A DNA stretch of 35,949 nt from an uncultured Porphyromonadaceae bacterium. GTDB lineage: Bacteria > Bacteroidota > Bacteroidia > Bacteroidales > Muribaculaceae. Under the pieces are notes generated by a model. It did not search any database. It was given only the letters and a program-made list of their open reading frames with translations, and was not told where the DNA came from. A program made the position numbers and the translations under genes. The stretch lies in the NCBI GenBank assembly GCA_947649495.1, contig CANSRU010000018.1, positions 1 through 35,949 of the forward strand. The letters run 5' to 3'. Within the stretch, counting starts at the first letter, position 1, and each line of letters begins with the position of its first letter. Of the stretch, positions 7,616 to 35,949 are shown piece after piece.

Positions 7616-8028
7616 TTGGATTGGTGTTTACTCCTATTGCGCAATATTATTTTTACAAAAGATTCAGGCAGCCGGACATTGTAGAGGTCGAGTGCCTTGT
7701 CGAACAGAGGGGCTATCTCCTCATCGGTAAAACCGGCTATGCCGCATCCTATCCTTGTTACATAGAAAGTGTTTTGATCCCACTCCCGGGCAAGGTCAAT
7801 GAATTGGTCTACGTAAGGTTTTATAGTCTCAACCCCGCCTTGCATGGTAGGGATGGCATAGGATTGTCCCTGTATACCGACACCTTGTCCCATTATGGCT
7901 CCGAAGTGGCGCAGCGCGGTCAGCGCAGCCCCGCCACAATGCTGGCCGGCAAGGTTGCTGCCGAACACGAATATGTCGTCGCGTCCGAGGTGTGTGATAT
8001 GTTCAGGAGTATATTTCAGTCCGTCCAT
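7612..8028 (-). CDS. Small macrodomain-like protein (A1S_2505-like)
   Basis: The 138-residue product has the pattern DIFVFGSNLAGQHCGGAA, then GQGVGIQGQSYAIPT, then VTRIGCGIAGF. The glycine-rich loops and the order of strands resemble macrodomains, which bind or hydrolyse ADP-ribose derivatives. I recall this particular family being annotated as A1S_2505-type, often phage-associated. The assignment rests on motif resemblance only. It lacks a signal peptide, so it should be cytoplasmic, unlike its exported operon partner at 6710-7615, with which it shares an ATGA overlap. No clear promoter is visible upstream. Confidence 0.65.
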   Translation of the reverse strand: MDGLKYTPEHITHLGRDDIFVFGSNLAGQHCGGAALTALRHFGAIMGQGVGIQGQSYAIPTMQGGVETIKPYVDQFIDLAREWDQNTFYVTRIGCGIAGFTDEEIAPLFDKALDLYNVRLPESFVKIILRNRSKHQSK

Positions 8029-8144
8029 TCGCTGATTGATGTTGTGTCGCGAAAATAGGATATTATTTTCTAATGTGAAAATCTCCTGATGCTAAAAAAC
8101 GATATCTTTCAAAAAAACAGTGTGGCGTAAAGGGGGACGTGATA

Positions 8145-9410
8145 TCAATATTGTATATTGTTCTTGATTGTTTCAACGATATAGCGAACATCGTCGTCTG
8201 TGACGTAGGGGCCGGCCGGGAGGCAGATGCCTACGGCAAACAGGGATTCGCTTACACCATTGATGTAGGCCGGGGCGTTTTTGTAGACCGGCTGTCTGTG
8301 CATCGGTTTCCAGAGAGGTCGGGCTTCAATGTTGGCTGCATCAAGAGCTATACGCAGGGCCTCCACATTGGCATTTGGCTGGCAGTCGGTGGTGGCGGTA
8401 GTTGCTGCATGAGTTACGCCTGCGGCACCACCCACAGCTCCGTCAATAATGTGTTTATAGGCATTTTCCTGTCCTTTTATTTTCAGTTCAGGGCTAAGCG
8501 TGGCGGTGCATAGCCAGAAGTTGGAGTCGAATGCGGGTGTGGGGTTTATGTGCATTGTTATGCCATCGACATCTTTCAACAACTCGCAATATAACTCCTG
8601 AACGTGTTTGTGATGAGCGATGTGGTCGTCAATTATGGTCATCTGTCCGCGGCCTATACCTGCACATATATTGCTCATGCGGTAGTTATAGCCTATGTGT
8701 TCATGCTGATAATAGGGATAGCTTTCGCGGGCTTGTGTGGCATAAAACAGAATCTCCTTGGCTTCTTCCGTGTCTTGACATATCAGCGCACCACCGCCGG
8801 AGGTAGTAATCATTTTATTGCCGTTGAACGACAGGACACCGTATCTGCCGAATGTGCCGAGCATCTGTCCATTATAGCGTGAGCCAAGGCCTTCGGCGGC
8901 ATCTTCAATTACCGGTATGCCATATCTGTCGGCTATCTCCATTATGCGGTCTATCCGGTATGGCATGCCATATAGAGCTACCGGGATGATGGCTTTCGGT
9001 TTTTTACCGGTTTGGGCGATGCGGTCGTTGATTGCTTCTTCAAGCAGGTCGGGATCCATGTTCCATGTGTCCTTTTCGGAATCGATGAACACGGGTGTGG
9101 CTCCAAGATATGTTATAGGATGTGATGAAGCGCAGAATGTGAATGACTGGACGAGCACCTCATCGCCAGGTCCTACACCACATCCAATCAGGGCAAGATG
9201 AACGGCTGCCGTACCGGCCGATAGTCCGACGACTTTTTTTGTCAGAGGTGTGTTGTCGAAGCGGTTGTTGACAAATGCTTCAAGATCGGCTTCAAATCCG
9301 TTGACATTAGGTCCCATGGGGACCACCCAATTGGAGTCGAAGGCCTCCTTTATAAAATCTTGTTCCTTGCCGCTCATGTGAGCCAGACAAAGTAAAATCC
9401 GTTGTCTCAT
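8145..9410 (-). CDS. DegT/DnrJ/EryC1/StrS family nucleotide-sugar aminotransferase
   Basis: A 421-residue PLP enzyme that would convert a UDP- or dTDP-linked 4-keto sugar to the 4-amino sugar, as PglE and WecE do. It begins RQRILLCLAHMSGKEQDFI and carries WVVPMGPNVNGFE (substrate entry), ED-AAEGLGS with Asp170 (PLP ring nitrogen), and SFNGNKMITTSGGG with the Schiff-base Lys199. An Ala/Gly-rich stretch at about 327-345 lengthens it slightly. It is the last gene of the polysaccharide operon, 36 bases after the acyltransferase. With the PglC-like and PglA-like enzymes it suggests a diamino-trideoxy or 4-amino sugar as first residue of the repeat. The 4,6-dehydratase needed to feed it is not in the window. 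The following 116 bases hold no gene. Confidence 0.92.
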   Translation of the reverse strand: MRQRILLCLAHMSGKEQDFIKEAFDSNWVVPMGPNVNGFEADLEAFVNNRFDNTPLTKKVVGLSAGTAAVHLALIGCGVGPGDEVLVQSFTFCASSHPITYLGATPVFIDSEKDTWNMDPDLLEEAINDRIAQTGKKPKAIIPVALYGMPYRIDRIMEIADRYGIPVIEDAAEGLGSRYNGQMLGTFGRYGVLSFNGNKMITTSGGGALICQDTEEAKEILFYATQARESYPYYQHEHIGYNYRMSNICAGIGRGQMTIIDDHIAHHKHVQELYCELLKDVDGITMHINPTPAFDSNFWLCTATLSPELKIKGQENAYKHIIDGAVGGAAGVTHAATTATTDCQPNANVEALRIALDAANIEARPLWKPMHRQPVYKNAPAYINGVSESLFAVGICLPAGPYVTDDDVRYIVETIKNNIQY

Positions 9411-9446: not shown

Positions 9447-10484
9447 TTATGATGCATGGGCCGGTTGTTTGTTATTTTTTATTGTTGGGAATATAAAGTT
9501 TGAAATATTGAATAAATGCAGGGCTTTCGCTATGCCTATACATGTTATTGCAATCAGAATACTGATTGTGAAGTAGACAGGAAACTCGAGCCACATTCCG
9601 CATATATGTTCTATAACTGACCTTAGATGCTCATATTTAAGAATCTCAATAATAAAATAGTGAATCAGATATATCTCCAAAGTTGATTTTCCTATAACTT
9701 CCAGTAATCGTGCTGTTCTCGTACCGGAAAAGGTGGTGCGTGTATATAATATACTATATAAGGCTATTACTAAAATGATTCCCGCGCAGGATGTGAGCAG
9801 GGATATAATCGGGTTGCCCTGTATACATAGGAACGCTGTAAAACATATTGCTGCGGTCAATAATGTACGGATACTATTTATCTTTGCGTATATCCGGGGG
9901 TAAATCATCCGGAATATAATTCCTCCAAGAAAGAATATCAGGTAATGGAAATATTGAAAGGCGGAGAAAAATGACAATGATGGCCAATCAATGGCGAATT
10001 TAGAAATAACCAGACTCAACATGCGGGAGAGAATTCCCAAAATAGCGAGAATTGCGATACATCTGATAGTCCTTGTCTTTTTTATGTTGAGATAATATAG
10101 TAAAGGAGCTATGGTAAAGAACATCTCGACGGCAACTATGGTAAACCAGTAACCACCTTTGTTCTGATTATACCACATCCCGATAAAGTTTGCATCATAG
10201 AAGAATGTGCAAAAAATTGCTCCAATCAGGAGCGTGGGGTATAGCTGCCGCAGTAATCTGTTTTTGGAGCGTTGCTTTAATAGGCCGGAGGTGTAGGTGG
10301 AACTATAAACGAAAAACCCGCTTATGAAAAAGAAAAGGGGCATTCTGAAGATTAGGAAAATATTGTTAATATAACTTAAACGGGGGGGGGTAGAATGTAT
10401 TCCTAACAAACAGATATGGCTGTATATCACTAACAGCATTGTGAACCCTCTTACTCCGTCAATATAATTAATGCGTCTATCCAT
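9447..10484 (-). CDS. Membrane acyltransferase 3 (polysaccharide O-acyltransferase-like), putatively phase variable
   Basis: A 345-residue integral membrane protein with about ten hydrophobic segments and the acyltransferase 3 N-terminus INYIDGVRGFTMLLVIYSH. Arg12 and His23 are the conserved positions of that family. Proteins of this type move acetyl or other acyl groups across the membrane onto cell-surface polysaccharide. The gene is 5 bases after the PglC-like transferase. Codons for residues 32-35 (Thr-Pro-Pro-Arg) contain nine consecutive C on the coding strand. Losing one base gives a stop two codons after the tract; gaining one gives a stop about five codons later. The version here is in frame (ON). 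The acyl donor and acceptor sugar cannot be read from the sequence. Confidence 0.87.
   Translation of the reverse strand: MDRRINYIDGVRGFTMLLVIYSHICLLGIHSTPPRLSYINNIFLIFRMPLFFFISGFFVYSSTYTSGLLKQRSKNRLLRQLYPTLLIGAIFCTFFYDANFIGMWYNQNKGGYWFTIVAVEMFFTIAPLLYYLNIKKTRTIRCIAILAILGILSRMLSLVISKFAIDWPSLSFFSAFQYFHYLIFFLGGIIFRMIYPRIYAKINSIRTLLTAAICFTAFLCIQGNPIISLLTSCAGIILVIALYSILYTRTTFSGTRTARLLEVIGKSTLEIYLIHYFIIEILKYEHLRSVIEHICGMWLEFPVYFTISILIAITCIGIAKALHLFNISNFIFPTIKNNKQPAHAS
10382..10390 (-). repeat. C9 homopolymer tract in the acyltransferase gene
   Basis: Nine G on the plus strand (nine C on the coding strand) within ACC CCC CCC CGT. With eight C the frame reads Thr-Pro-Pro-Val-stop (TAA). With ten C it reads through Phe-Lys-Leu-Tyr to TAA. 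It is one of only three runs of nine or more G/C that I see in the window. Confidence 0.9.
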
Positions 10485-34469: not shown

Positions 34470-35949
34470 TTATTTCCGGCGGTATATAAAATGTAGGTAT
34501 TTCAGAATATGCTCACTTTCGATATTACGCATATAGCTTTCCATGTATGCCCAGTCGGGCGAACCATTTGAATCTATGGGAAGTGTAATAATTTCTTTGG
34601 ATAAGCGGGTGGCACTTCGCTTATATCCGAAATTATACTTACCCCTAATACGGTCAGCTATGGTTGTGATAAATGTTCCGGTATATCTATTGATGTGGTT
34701 ATTATAACCTAAAGTCATATCTGAAGTTGCTATAAAATCTTCAGCCTTGTATACAGAGTAGCCCATAGAACCCTCCCCATTACGGATAAACGCAATGCAA
34801 TTCCCTTTTTGAATGGTGCTTATGTCTCTATTTACAAAGCATAACACTCCATTGTTTTGATTGGTTGCTCCAAGATAACTTATGCCATTGTCTGATTTTT
34901 TGATGTGGTTAAGTCCTTTGGATTTACCGGCAACAAGTGTCGGGAACAAGTCACGTAACAGGAAGTTCTTCCAATTTACCCCCCCCCATTTAGATTTGTT
35001 AACACTTGTCCGTCCTTTAAAGATTTTTAGGGTGGTATTGAGTATATTATTCTCTACATCTTTCATAAATGCCGACATAAAGGCAAAATCAATCTCCCCA
35101 TTATCAGTGGCTGGTAGATATATACGGCTTTTTCTTAATCTTGATAGAGTTGCACCGTAACTTCCCCAACTAAACTTTTCCACGAGTTTTTTTATCGTAA
35201 CAATTAAGAACATTGCATTATATTTGTCTAATTTTGCATGTCTTATAATTTGTATATTCTGACCTGTATAAAATGAGGTGGGCTGATAAAACACCGTTTG
35301 AGTATCCAACCCAATCGTAATTACATTACCTTCATCAACCTTGTAACGTAATGGTTGTTCCGTTACAAACATATCCATTCCATTATTCAAGTCAGACCGA
35401 GTAACATATGGTATATTTCCTGGTTTTTGATTGAGTTTGTTCTTGTCTATGCCACTATTTGTGGATTGAATAGAAAATTCATTACCAAAAACAAACTCTT
35501 TCCATTGTGAACATAATGATTCACCCCCCCCCAGTATGTGGTTGGTTATCAGTTTCTTGCATAATTGATTTATCGTTGGTTTTAAAATTTGTTGTTCTTT
35601 TTGTTTTATATAGGCTTCCATAAAAGCCCAATCTGGATTATTATTGGTATCTACAGGAAGTAAAATTCGTTGTCTTTTTAAACGCCCTGTTCCCATTTTA
35701 TAACCATAGCCATATTTTTCCCGCTGTTTCGAGATACACATAGAAATGAATAATGAAATGTAACGGTTGTTCTTTTTAAGACGCAATTTGCGAGTATCAT
35801 TTCCGAATAGAGCTTTATATGGATGATAAAAACAATAACCTACCGAACCATTCCTATTTACAGAAAGGCATCCACATTCAAGTGTGTAATTTTTATACGG
35901 GCATAAAAACGAAGCGAGCAACGGTGTGAATGTCGGTCGGCGGCTTAAT
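34470..35949 (-). CDS. hsdS: Type I restriction specificity subunit (HsdS-like), at least three modules, 5' end beyond window
   Basis: The frame is open from the right edge to 34470, so the N-terminus is outside the window. The first in-frame start inside (TTG at 35921) is unlikely to be real. The protein has modules of about 180 residues, each ending in a common motif of the form RL-x-K-x-x-I-x-LP, D, D-W/F-A-F/Y-M: RLKRQRILLP (about 35683), RLRKSRIYLP (about 35141) and RLSKEIITLP (about 34607). Target-recognition features precede each: GSVGYCFYHPYKALFGND; IPYVTRSDLNNGM with WKEFVFGNEF; ISYLGATNQNNGV with NWKNFLLRDLF. S subunits direct methylase and nuclease subunits to a DNA site. Two G9 tracts lie at the module junctions. 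HsdM and HsdR are not in the window. Confidence 0.87.
   Translation of the reverse strand, partial: LSRRPTFTPLLASFLCPYKNYTLECGCLSVNRNGSVGYCFYHPYKALFGNDTRKLRLKKNNRYISLFISMCISKQREKYGYGYKMGTGRLKRQRILLPVDTNNNPDWAFMEAYIKQKEQQILKPTINQLCKKLITNHILGGGESLCSQWKEFVFGNEFSIQSTNSGIDKNKLNQKPGNIPYVTRSDLNNGMDMFVTEQPLRYKVDEGNVITIGLDTQTVFYQPTSFYTGQNIQIIRHAKLDKYNAMFLIVTIKKLVEKFSWGSYGATLSRLRKSRIYLPATDNGEIDFAFMSAFMKDVENNILNTTLKIFKGRTSVNKSKWGGVNWKNFLLRDLFPTLVAGKSKGLNHIKKSDNGISYLGATNQNNGVLCFVNRDISTIQKGNCIAFIRNGEGSMGYSVYKAEDFIATSDMTLGYNNHINRYTGTFITTIADRIRGKYNFGYKRSATRLSKEIITLPIDSNGSPDWAYMESYMRNIESEHILKYLHFIYRRK
34979..34987 (-). repeat. G9 homopolymer tract at second module junction of hsdS
   Basis: Nine G on the coding strand in TGG GGG GGG GTA, just before NWKNFLLRDLF. 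With eight G the next codon is TAA, an immediate stop. With ten G the frame ends at TGA about ten codons later. Confidence 0.9.
35524..35532 (-). repeat. G9 homopolymer tract at first module junction of hsdS
   Basis: Nine G on the coding strand in CTG GGG GGG GGT GAA, just before QWKEFVFGNEF. With ten G the codon after the tract is TGA, an immediate stop. With eight G the frame ends at TAG within about 25 codons. Confidence 0.9.

Follow-up and report, generated by a model that had tools for sequence, protein, structure and literature searches.

Length switching of a specificity (S) subunit by a homopolymer tract has been described for HpyUM032XIII of Helicobacter pylori UM032, in which, according to the accessible parts of its report, a tract of 12 G yields S1 alone with the target CYAN7TRG, and a tract of 11 G yields a fused S1-S2 protein with the target CYAN7TTC (PMC4450513). 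The catalytic residues of BcgI are given, in the available sections of PMC9159934, as PE-x12-ExK. For BsaXI, the available portions of two reports describe TRD1-CR1 alone as active on a new palindromic target, and TRD2-CR2 alone as not expressed (PMC9159934, PMC11997821). An excerpt of PMC6211672 lists BcgI-like systems of Haemophilus parasuis in which the S gene is split, and according to a survey cited in the accessible text of PMC7394358, 7.9% of type I hsdS genes contain repeats.

The window analyzed here, 35,949 nucleotides in length, is an entire contig (C18), one of the 34 contigs of its genome, which its relatives place in the order Bacteroidales; contigs are designated C and loci L. 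On its minus strand, an uninterrupted frame of 492 codons (34470-35948; ORF list) extends from the end of the contig to a stop codon, and Pfam Methylase_S recognizes three stretches within the 492-residue translation (E 9.4e-36; Table 1). An earlier note on this DNA had placed a second module junction at a G9 tract, and both its coordinates and the coding-strand reading TGG GGG GGG GTA proved exact: the tract at the TRD2-CR2/TRD3 joint (J2) consists of nine C on the plus strand and nine G on the minus strand, where the frame reads AAA TGG GGG GGG GTA AAT TGG. As had been predicted, loss of one G brings TAA into frame right behind the tract, and gain of one G leads, 12 residues from the tract start, to TGA. 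The companion tract expected at the equivalent junction is the second G9, located at the TRD1-CR1/TRD2 joint (J1); here gain of one G gives a stop right behind the tract, and loss of one gives a stop after 28 residues from the tract start. The frame effects of both tracts support the proposed existence of three possible lengths, each ending after a whole module. Read from the back part of TRD1 on, the window is in the state J1 ON / J2 ON.

Table 1. Features of the S gene and of the element within TRD1 (positions in the window unless a contig is named)
Feature	Position	Strand	Basis or remark
S gene, distal part (TRD1 end, TRD2, TRD3)	34470..35949	-	492-aa open frame; Pfam Methylase_S
TRD1, back part	35586..35897	-	Pfam PF01420, profile positions 52-162
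J1 tract, G9 on coding strand, TRD1-CR1/TRD2 joint	35524..35532	-	in frame as sequenced
TRD2 module	35037..35504	-	Pfam PF01420, E 2.3e-16
J2 tract, G9 on coding strand, TRD2-CR2/TRD3 joint	34979..34987	-	in frame as sequenced
TRD3 module	34509..34978	-	Pfam PF01420, E 5.5e-9; match ends at 34979, the first base of the tract
Putative end of repeated element inside TRD1, not S coding	35898..35949	-	boundaries by eye; TTGCTCGYTTCGTTTT motif
Putative other end of the element	start of C25 (L005, about 1-49)		boundaries by eye

The back part of TRD1 is 80% identical over 116 amino acids to TRD1 of L014-L016, and window TRD2 and TRD3 are 90% and approximately 90% identical to modules 2 and 3 of L011, respectively, with a dN/dS of 0.03 for TRD2. 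L011 comes from Phocaeicola faecicola, L015 from Bacteroides mediterraneensis and L016 from Mediterranea massiliensis. Runs of eight G or C gave six matches in the window (arising from three nine-base tracts), compared to a shuffle mean of 0.45, and at least six matches were reached in 0 of 100 shuffles. The 2.45-Mb genome contains 14 exact nine-G runs, three of which lie in the 36-kb window.

A T follows all 14 nine-G runs of this genome, read on the G strand, and the same base follows in 33 of the 37 polyG S-gene junctions of relatives. The window also contains a tract at 10382-10390, which is C9 on the coding strand at approximately codon 31 of a minus-strand gene (9447-10484) that appears acyltransferase-like by eye; a one-base change in this tract stops the frame within 8 codons, and the gene looks like a phase-variable surface-glycan gene. 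A C9 tract is also present in a second ORF of the same genome that is acyltransferase-like by eye (L138, about 1502). Seven of the 11 other G9 runs (L133, L135, L137, L139, L140, L141 and L142) share a TTAA located a few bases upstream and, in most cases, a TA immediately behind the tract; in five (L133, L137, L139, L140 and L142) the G9 is followed, within roughly 100 nt, by the start of an ORF whose product looks secreted by eye, and for L135 and L141 no secreted-looking ORF is listed downstream. The -7 box of Bacteroidales promoters is TAnnTTTG; since the sequence after the G9 can resemble it, the tract may set promoter spacing.

The S gene extends past the end of C18, and the front of TRD1 lies together with the partner gene on contig C25 (locus L005). 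A search for Methylase_S elsewhere in the genome (E 0.001) found only the start of C25 besides the window modules, and the front and the back of TRD1, from C25 and C18, both have their best match in TRD1 of L014-L016. By eye, recognizable TRD1 identity ends approximately 50 bases before each contig end, and TTGCTCGYTTCGTTTT occurs at the ends of C18 and C25 in inverted orientation, with the same sequences at contig ends of C4 and C24 (L112, L114). Among 34 genomes of the same genus, one matches the right end of the element, and 12 bases of the left end recur in it roughly 0.5 kb off (L130, about 1001-1523). The simplest reading of these sequences is that TRD1 is probably interrupted by a repeated, probably mobile element, in which case the switch may be idle, or the system off, in this genome.

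The partner gene comprises 639 codons on C25, and its end overlaps the start of the S gene. Residues 302-584 of the 639-residue protein match N6_Mtase (PF02384, E 8.8e-32), and its N terminus carries P51-E52-x12-E65-x-K67, which is invariant in all 32 aligned homologues and conserved at the 97% level among 94 sequences. An AlphaFold model of the partner (mean pLDDT 79.7) yielded Foldseek matches to type I M subunits and to the BsaXI RM chain. The PE-x12-ExK motif and an N6-adenine methyltransferase domain are thus found on one chain, next to a separate, overlapping S gene with three TRD-CR modules, and we conclude from the sequence that the partner is a BcgI-like type IIB RM fusion (predicted nuclease plus methylase). 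The earlier note had named HsdM, a type I subunit, as the partner, and this was wrong; the nuclease motif of the partner itself rules out a type I HsdM/HsdS reading. No HsdR was recognized by eye in the translated ORF lists around S and RM, nor among ten flanking ORFs run through Pfam (three of L015, three of L011 and four of L041). In six Streptococcus loci a 342-codon ORF lies between RM and S, and the L041 copy (7964-8986) matches RhuM (PF13310).

Named genomes were scanned with the RM protein, and the best 80 of 216 relatives (68-88% identity; Bacteroidota, Bacillota and Pseudomonadota, as judged from organism names) were combined with 24 further loci from viral contigs and whole-genome searches, giving 104 loci whose modules were read with a profile built in this analysis. 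The main scan yielded three modules in 34 loci, two in 56, four in one, one in five and none in eight, with several loci stopping at contig ends; three of the eight (L092, L093 and L125, on the minus strand) had been misread and were later re-read, and they stand outside the 34. Each species is represented by one genome, and tract lengths were taken from assemblies, where homopolymer lengths may err by one base, most of all in MAGs. L089 and L091, which lie on the contigs of L009 and L021, were left uncounted, as were L095-L099 and L008 (29-34% identity). The table of J1/J2 frames excludes L106 (four modules) and the near-duplicates L067, L126 and L087, and retains the near-identical L014-L016 and L101/L110; alignment A1 excludes L124, L127-L129 and L092.

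The system is uncommon. Within the family, 12 of 397 genomes, including the present one, match at E 1e-60, five of the 12 at 32-34% identity, and a search of 34 genomes of the genus for the RM gene gave, besides its own genome, a single match at 29% identity. Viral contigs contained 12 loci, and plasmids gave 21 records with a best identity of 68.6%. L106, from a viral contig, has four TRD modules, the third of which contains an AG repeat close to its end, and possibly represents two S genes.

In order to be counted, a repeat had to reach at least 7 G or C, at least 9 A or T, at least 6 two-base units, or at least 3 or 4 longer units; these thresholds were chosen after the junction sequences had been seen, and the controls were scanned under identical thresholds. 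Across the 104 loci, 62 repeats were found in 8,907 junction bases, compared to 2 in 101,613 module-body bases (one of them near a module end, in L106) and 1 in 194,331 bases of RM genes. The repeat unit varies by lineage (G, C, AT, GA or AGCCG), being G in 27 cases and GA in one at J1, and AT/TA in 16, G in 10, C in six and AGCCG in two at J2. A J2 repeat is present in every one of the 34 three-module loci of the main scan. Of the two-module loci, 41 have 1.7 kb or more of sequence after RM, and 9 of these contain a J1 repeat. On a quick tree, built from the RM protein and not from S, the presence of the J1 repeat changes at least 9 times and the type of the J2 repeat at least 4 times; changes in module number were counted but set aside, since the count includes loci cut by contig ends. 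The re-read locus L092 has three modules, a G8 at J1 that is out of frame, a broken J2 (GGAGGG) and a frameshifted third module, indicating that the third module can be lost.

When junctions are compared at J1, 7 of the 28 loci with a repeat are in frame (7 of 29 if L092 is included) versus 56 of the 58 without (Fisher p 4e-12, with relatedness ignored). At J2, 12 of the 34 repeats are in frame, close to the one third that random tract lengths would give; among three-module loci, 19 have a repeat at J2 only, and 7 of these are in frame. States at the two junctions combine, as had been surmised: the 15 relatives with both repeats are distributed over OFF/OFF (8), OFF/ON (5) and ON/OFF (2) for J1/J2, placing 13 of 15 in the one-unit state. 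With repeats at both junctions, the three-unit state is seen in the window only, in the copy that is interrupted in TRD1.

The repeats lie inside the reading frame and shift it, and relatives provide length differences between otherwise identical alleles at both junctions. L015 and L016 are one G apart at J2, with 0 mismatches in 1,749 bases; L014 and L015 are one G apart at J1, with 0 mismatches in 817 bases; and L101 and L110 are four AT units apart at J2, with 2 mismatches in 1,742 bases. Independent translation of the downstream modules past an out-of-frame tract was weakly disfavoured by a scan for start codons and Shine-Dalgarno-like words: an in-frame ATG is found within 60 nt at 14 of the 43 out-of-frame repeat junctions, and by a simple rule such a word accompanies none of these ATGs, although it does accompany three GTG/TTG codons (L016, L101 and L110).

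A single frame covers at least 150 of the 164 profile positions in 101 of the 102 modules of three-module loci. Module pairs that are at least 70% identical have dN/dS values of 0.02-0.14, apart from a single pair that reaches 0.36; dS is above 1 in many of these comparisons, which makes the corresponding ratios uncertain. This set includes pairs in which neither member is in frame, such as TRD2 of L035/L039 (0.028) and TRD3 of L009/L011 (0.05). When window modules 2 and 3 were compared to those of L009/L011, dN/dS was 0.03-0.05 in three of four comparisons, and the fourth was saturated. Low dN/dS values, together with intact modules, indicate that the out-of-frame modules are maintained by purifying selection. 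Third modules of the Bacteroidales and of a Bacillota-like set share approximately 29% mean identity, and some are approximately 60% identical to TRD1 or TRD2 elsewhere. A special, non-TRD role for TRD3 was dropped, because its families resemble TRD1 and TRD2 of other loci; this resemblance suggests that TRD3 is an ordinary TRD.

The model of a natural three-unit S protein (L027; mean pLDDT 84.2) resembles type I S subunits and the BsaXI S subunit; with its pTM of 0.48, the model does not fix how the units are placed relative to one another. Along the chain, it shows TRD1, a helix at 150-180, TRD2, a helix at 328-370, TRD3 and a helix at 509-534. In L025, L028 and L029, which are out of frame at J2, the C-terminus of S is encoded by the AT repeat and corresponds to the region of the second long helix in the L027 model, which places the tracts at TRD-CR boundaries. 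Since the tracts lie in or just after the CR helix, every product would be a whole number of TRD-CR units; that each stop leaves such a number is indicated by alignment for the G tracts of the window and by the model for L027.

Our main reading, to which we assign a probability of roughly 0.8, is that the gene encodes the S subunit of a BcgI-like type IIB enzyme with three TRD-CR units, in which a slippage repeat at each boundary sets the number of units, so that S probably switches among one, two and three. Replication strand slippage would alter the length of the tracts at J1 and J2. With J1 out of frame, S would stop after unit 1; with J1 in frame and J2 out of frame, it would stop after unit 2; and with both in frame, it would run through unit 3. 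A single unit should pair with itself and specify a palindromic bipartite target (1.1), and two units would specify the canonical asymmetric target (1.2). With three units, the target would be changed, or two would be recognized together (1.2 plus a pair that uses TRD3). J1 would thereby choose between 1.1 and 1.2, and J2 would add a target that uses TRD3 or replace one. The benefit would presumably be a varied restriction barrier to phages and incoming DNA, and a varied methylome. In relatives, one-unit and two-unit forms are active with different targets, going by the accessible accounts of HpyUM032XIII, the BsaXI constructs and the type I system NgoAV, and the data that come nearest to a three-unit S are those on the type I protein JHP1422, with its three TRDs and two methylated targets. 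We infer that switching occurs in the window species and that the three-unit form is active, with a target of the kind outlined above.

The number of junctions out of frame (21 of 28 at J1 and 22 of 34 at J2, among those with a repeat) would also be expected if the gene had become a pseudogene in the majority of carriers, with the tracts as frameshift accidents, and both the interruption of TRD1 in the window copy and L092, with its broken tract and frameshifted TRD3, fit such decay. However, the modules of three-module loci are intact in all but one case, those out of frame have low dN/dS values, and repeat-free junctions are almost always in frame; we rejected the pseudogene reading on dN/dS and module integrity, and decay appears quite improbable to us. 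That the repeats are kept for their amino acids, as a flexible Gly hinge between modules, is hardly credible: the in-frame G9 does encode Gly at both the TRD1/TRD2 and the TRD2/TRD3 joint, but relatives have C runs, AT repeats (Tyr-Ile) and AGCCG repeats at the same place, and most tract lengths are out of frame. Recombination between identical J1 and J2 tracts would allow a module to be swapped or deleted, and in L017 TRD1 is joined at a G8 tract to a TRD3-type module (88% identical to window TRD3), as though a deletion between the tracts had removed TRD2; the contig ends within that module. Against this, the J1 and J2 repeats differ (G and C) in six loci, 19 three-module loci have a repeat at J2 alone, nine matching bases are few for homologous recombination, and near-identical alleles differ in unit number. 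We regard recombination as a rather improbable alternative, although it could act beside slippage.

It is also conceivable, if in our view unlikely, that a single length is active and all others are off, giving a plain ON/OFF switch with no grading of specificity. HP1471/HP1472, for which the available text reports no activity even after correction (PMC3936762), would agree with this, as would HpyUM032XIII, whose S2 is described in part of its report as inactive without S1 (PMC4450513). The same enzyme argues in the other direction, since its one-unit and two-unit S proteins are both given as active, on different targets, as does TRD1-CR1 of BsaXI, which was active with a new target in the sections consulted.

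The switching of S among one, two and three units, as we read it, leads to a broader proposal, for and against which we consider the chances to be evenly balanced: that two independent tracts form a specificity register, setting one, two or three units, each length with its own methylome and target; that the third unit is nearly always controlled in this way, in several phyla and by unrelated repeats; and that the third TRD is a switchable alternative and not a fixed part of the enzyme. Different lineages place unrelated slippery repeats at the same protein boundary, which is a strong sign that changing specificity is selected. If the proposal is true, a clone would obtain three sets of targets, for both methylation and cutting, from a single gene and with no recombinase, in an enzyme class where the switches described in the papers searched have two states, and the function of a three-TRD S subunit could be tested in a natural system.

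Among known systems, HpyUM032XIII shares with the present one a BcgI-like type IIG/IIB architecture, with an RM fusion and an S subunit whose TRD1/TRD2 G tract equals the J1 switch; as far as its accessible description goes, it has two TRDs and one tract, and neither a third module nor a J2. Hpy99XXII (JHP1364/JHP1365) and HP1471/HP1472 of H. pylori likewise carry a tract of 13 or 14 G in the S gene of a BcgI-like system, but a single one, and full and truncated forms alone are described in the parts of PMC3936762 available. NgoAV of Neisseria gonorrhoeae resembles the present system in the polyG of its hsdS, which yields truncated or full-length S with different targets, and differs in being type I, with separate HsdM and HsdR and one tract (PMC9577141, PMC6789123, both in part). 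For JHP1422/JHP1423 of H. pylori J99, the consulted sections of PMC3936762 describe three TRDs in one S and two methylated targets, as well as tests of single and paired TRDs in which TRD1 alone was inactive; this system is type I, and its allele length is ascribed to duplication or recombination at repeats and not to junction slippage. Three TRDs via recombination also appear in the portion of PMC3077401 consulted. The type IIG enzymes JHP1272 and HP1353-HP1354 of H. pylori have two homopolymers per gene, the first of which switches activity while the second adds a domain and changes specificity, but methyltransferase, nuclease and recognition reside in one gene, and the added part resembles a portion of a TRD and not a whole TRD-CR unit (PMC3936762, accessible text). 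BsaXI is a type IIB (RM)2S enzyme whose structures are matched by our RM and S models; its truncations were made in the laboratory, and junction repeats are absent from the parts of its descriptions consulted (PMC9159934, PMC11997821).

The earlier note knew of no description of such a graded switch. Three whole-unit states set by two tracts, recurring with unrelated repeats, were not found in the open-access papers searched (REBASE lay outside the search); the one-tract form is published for the BcgI-like HpyUM032XIII (PMC4450513). The interpretation in that note was, overall, partly supported. Thus, going by the accessible accounts of HpyUM032XIII and NgoAV, the step between one and two units is known, and the two-tract, three-unit register and its recurrence are what the papers searched did not contain.
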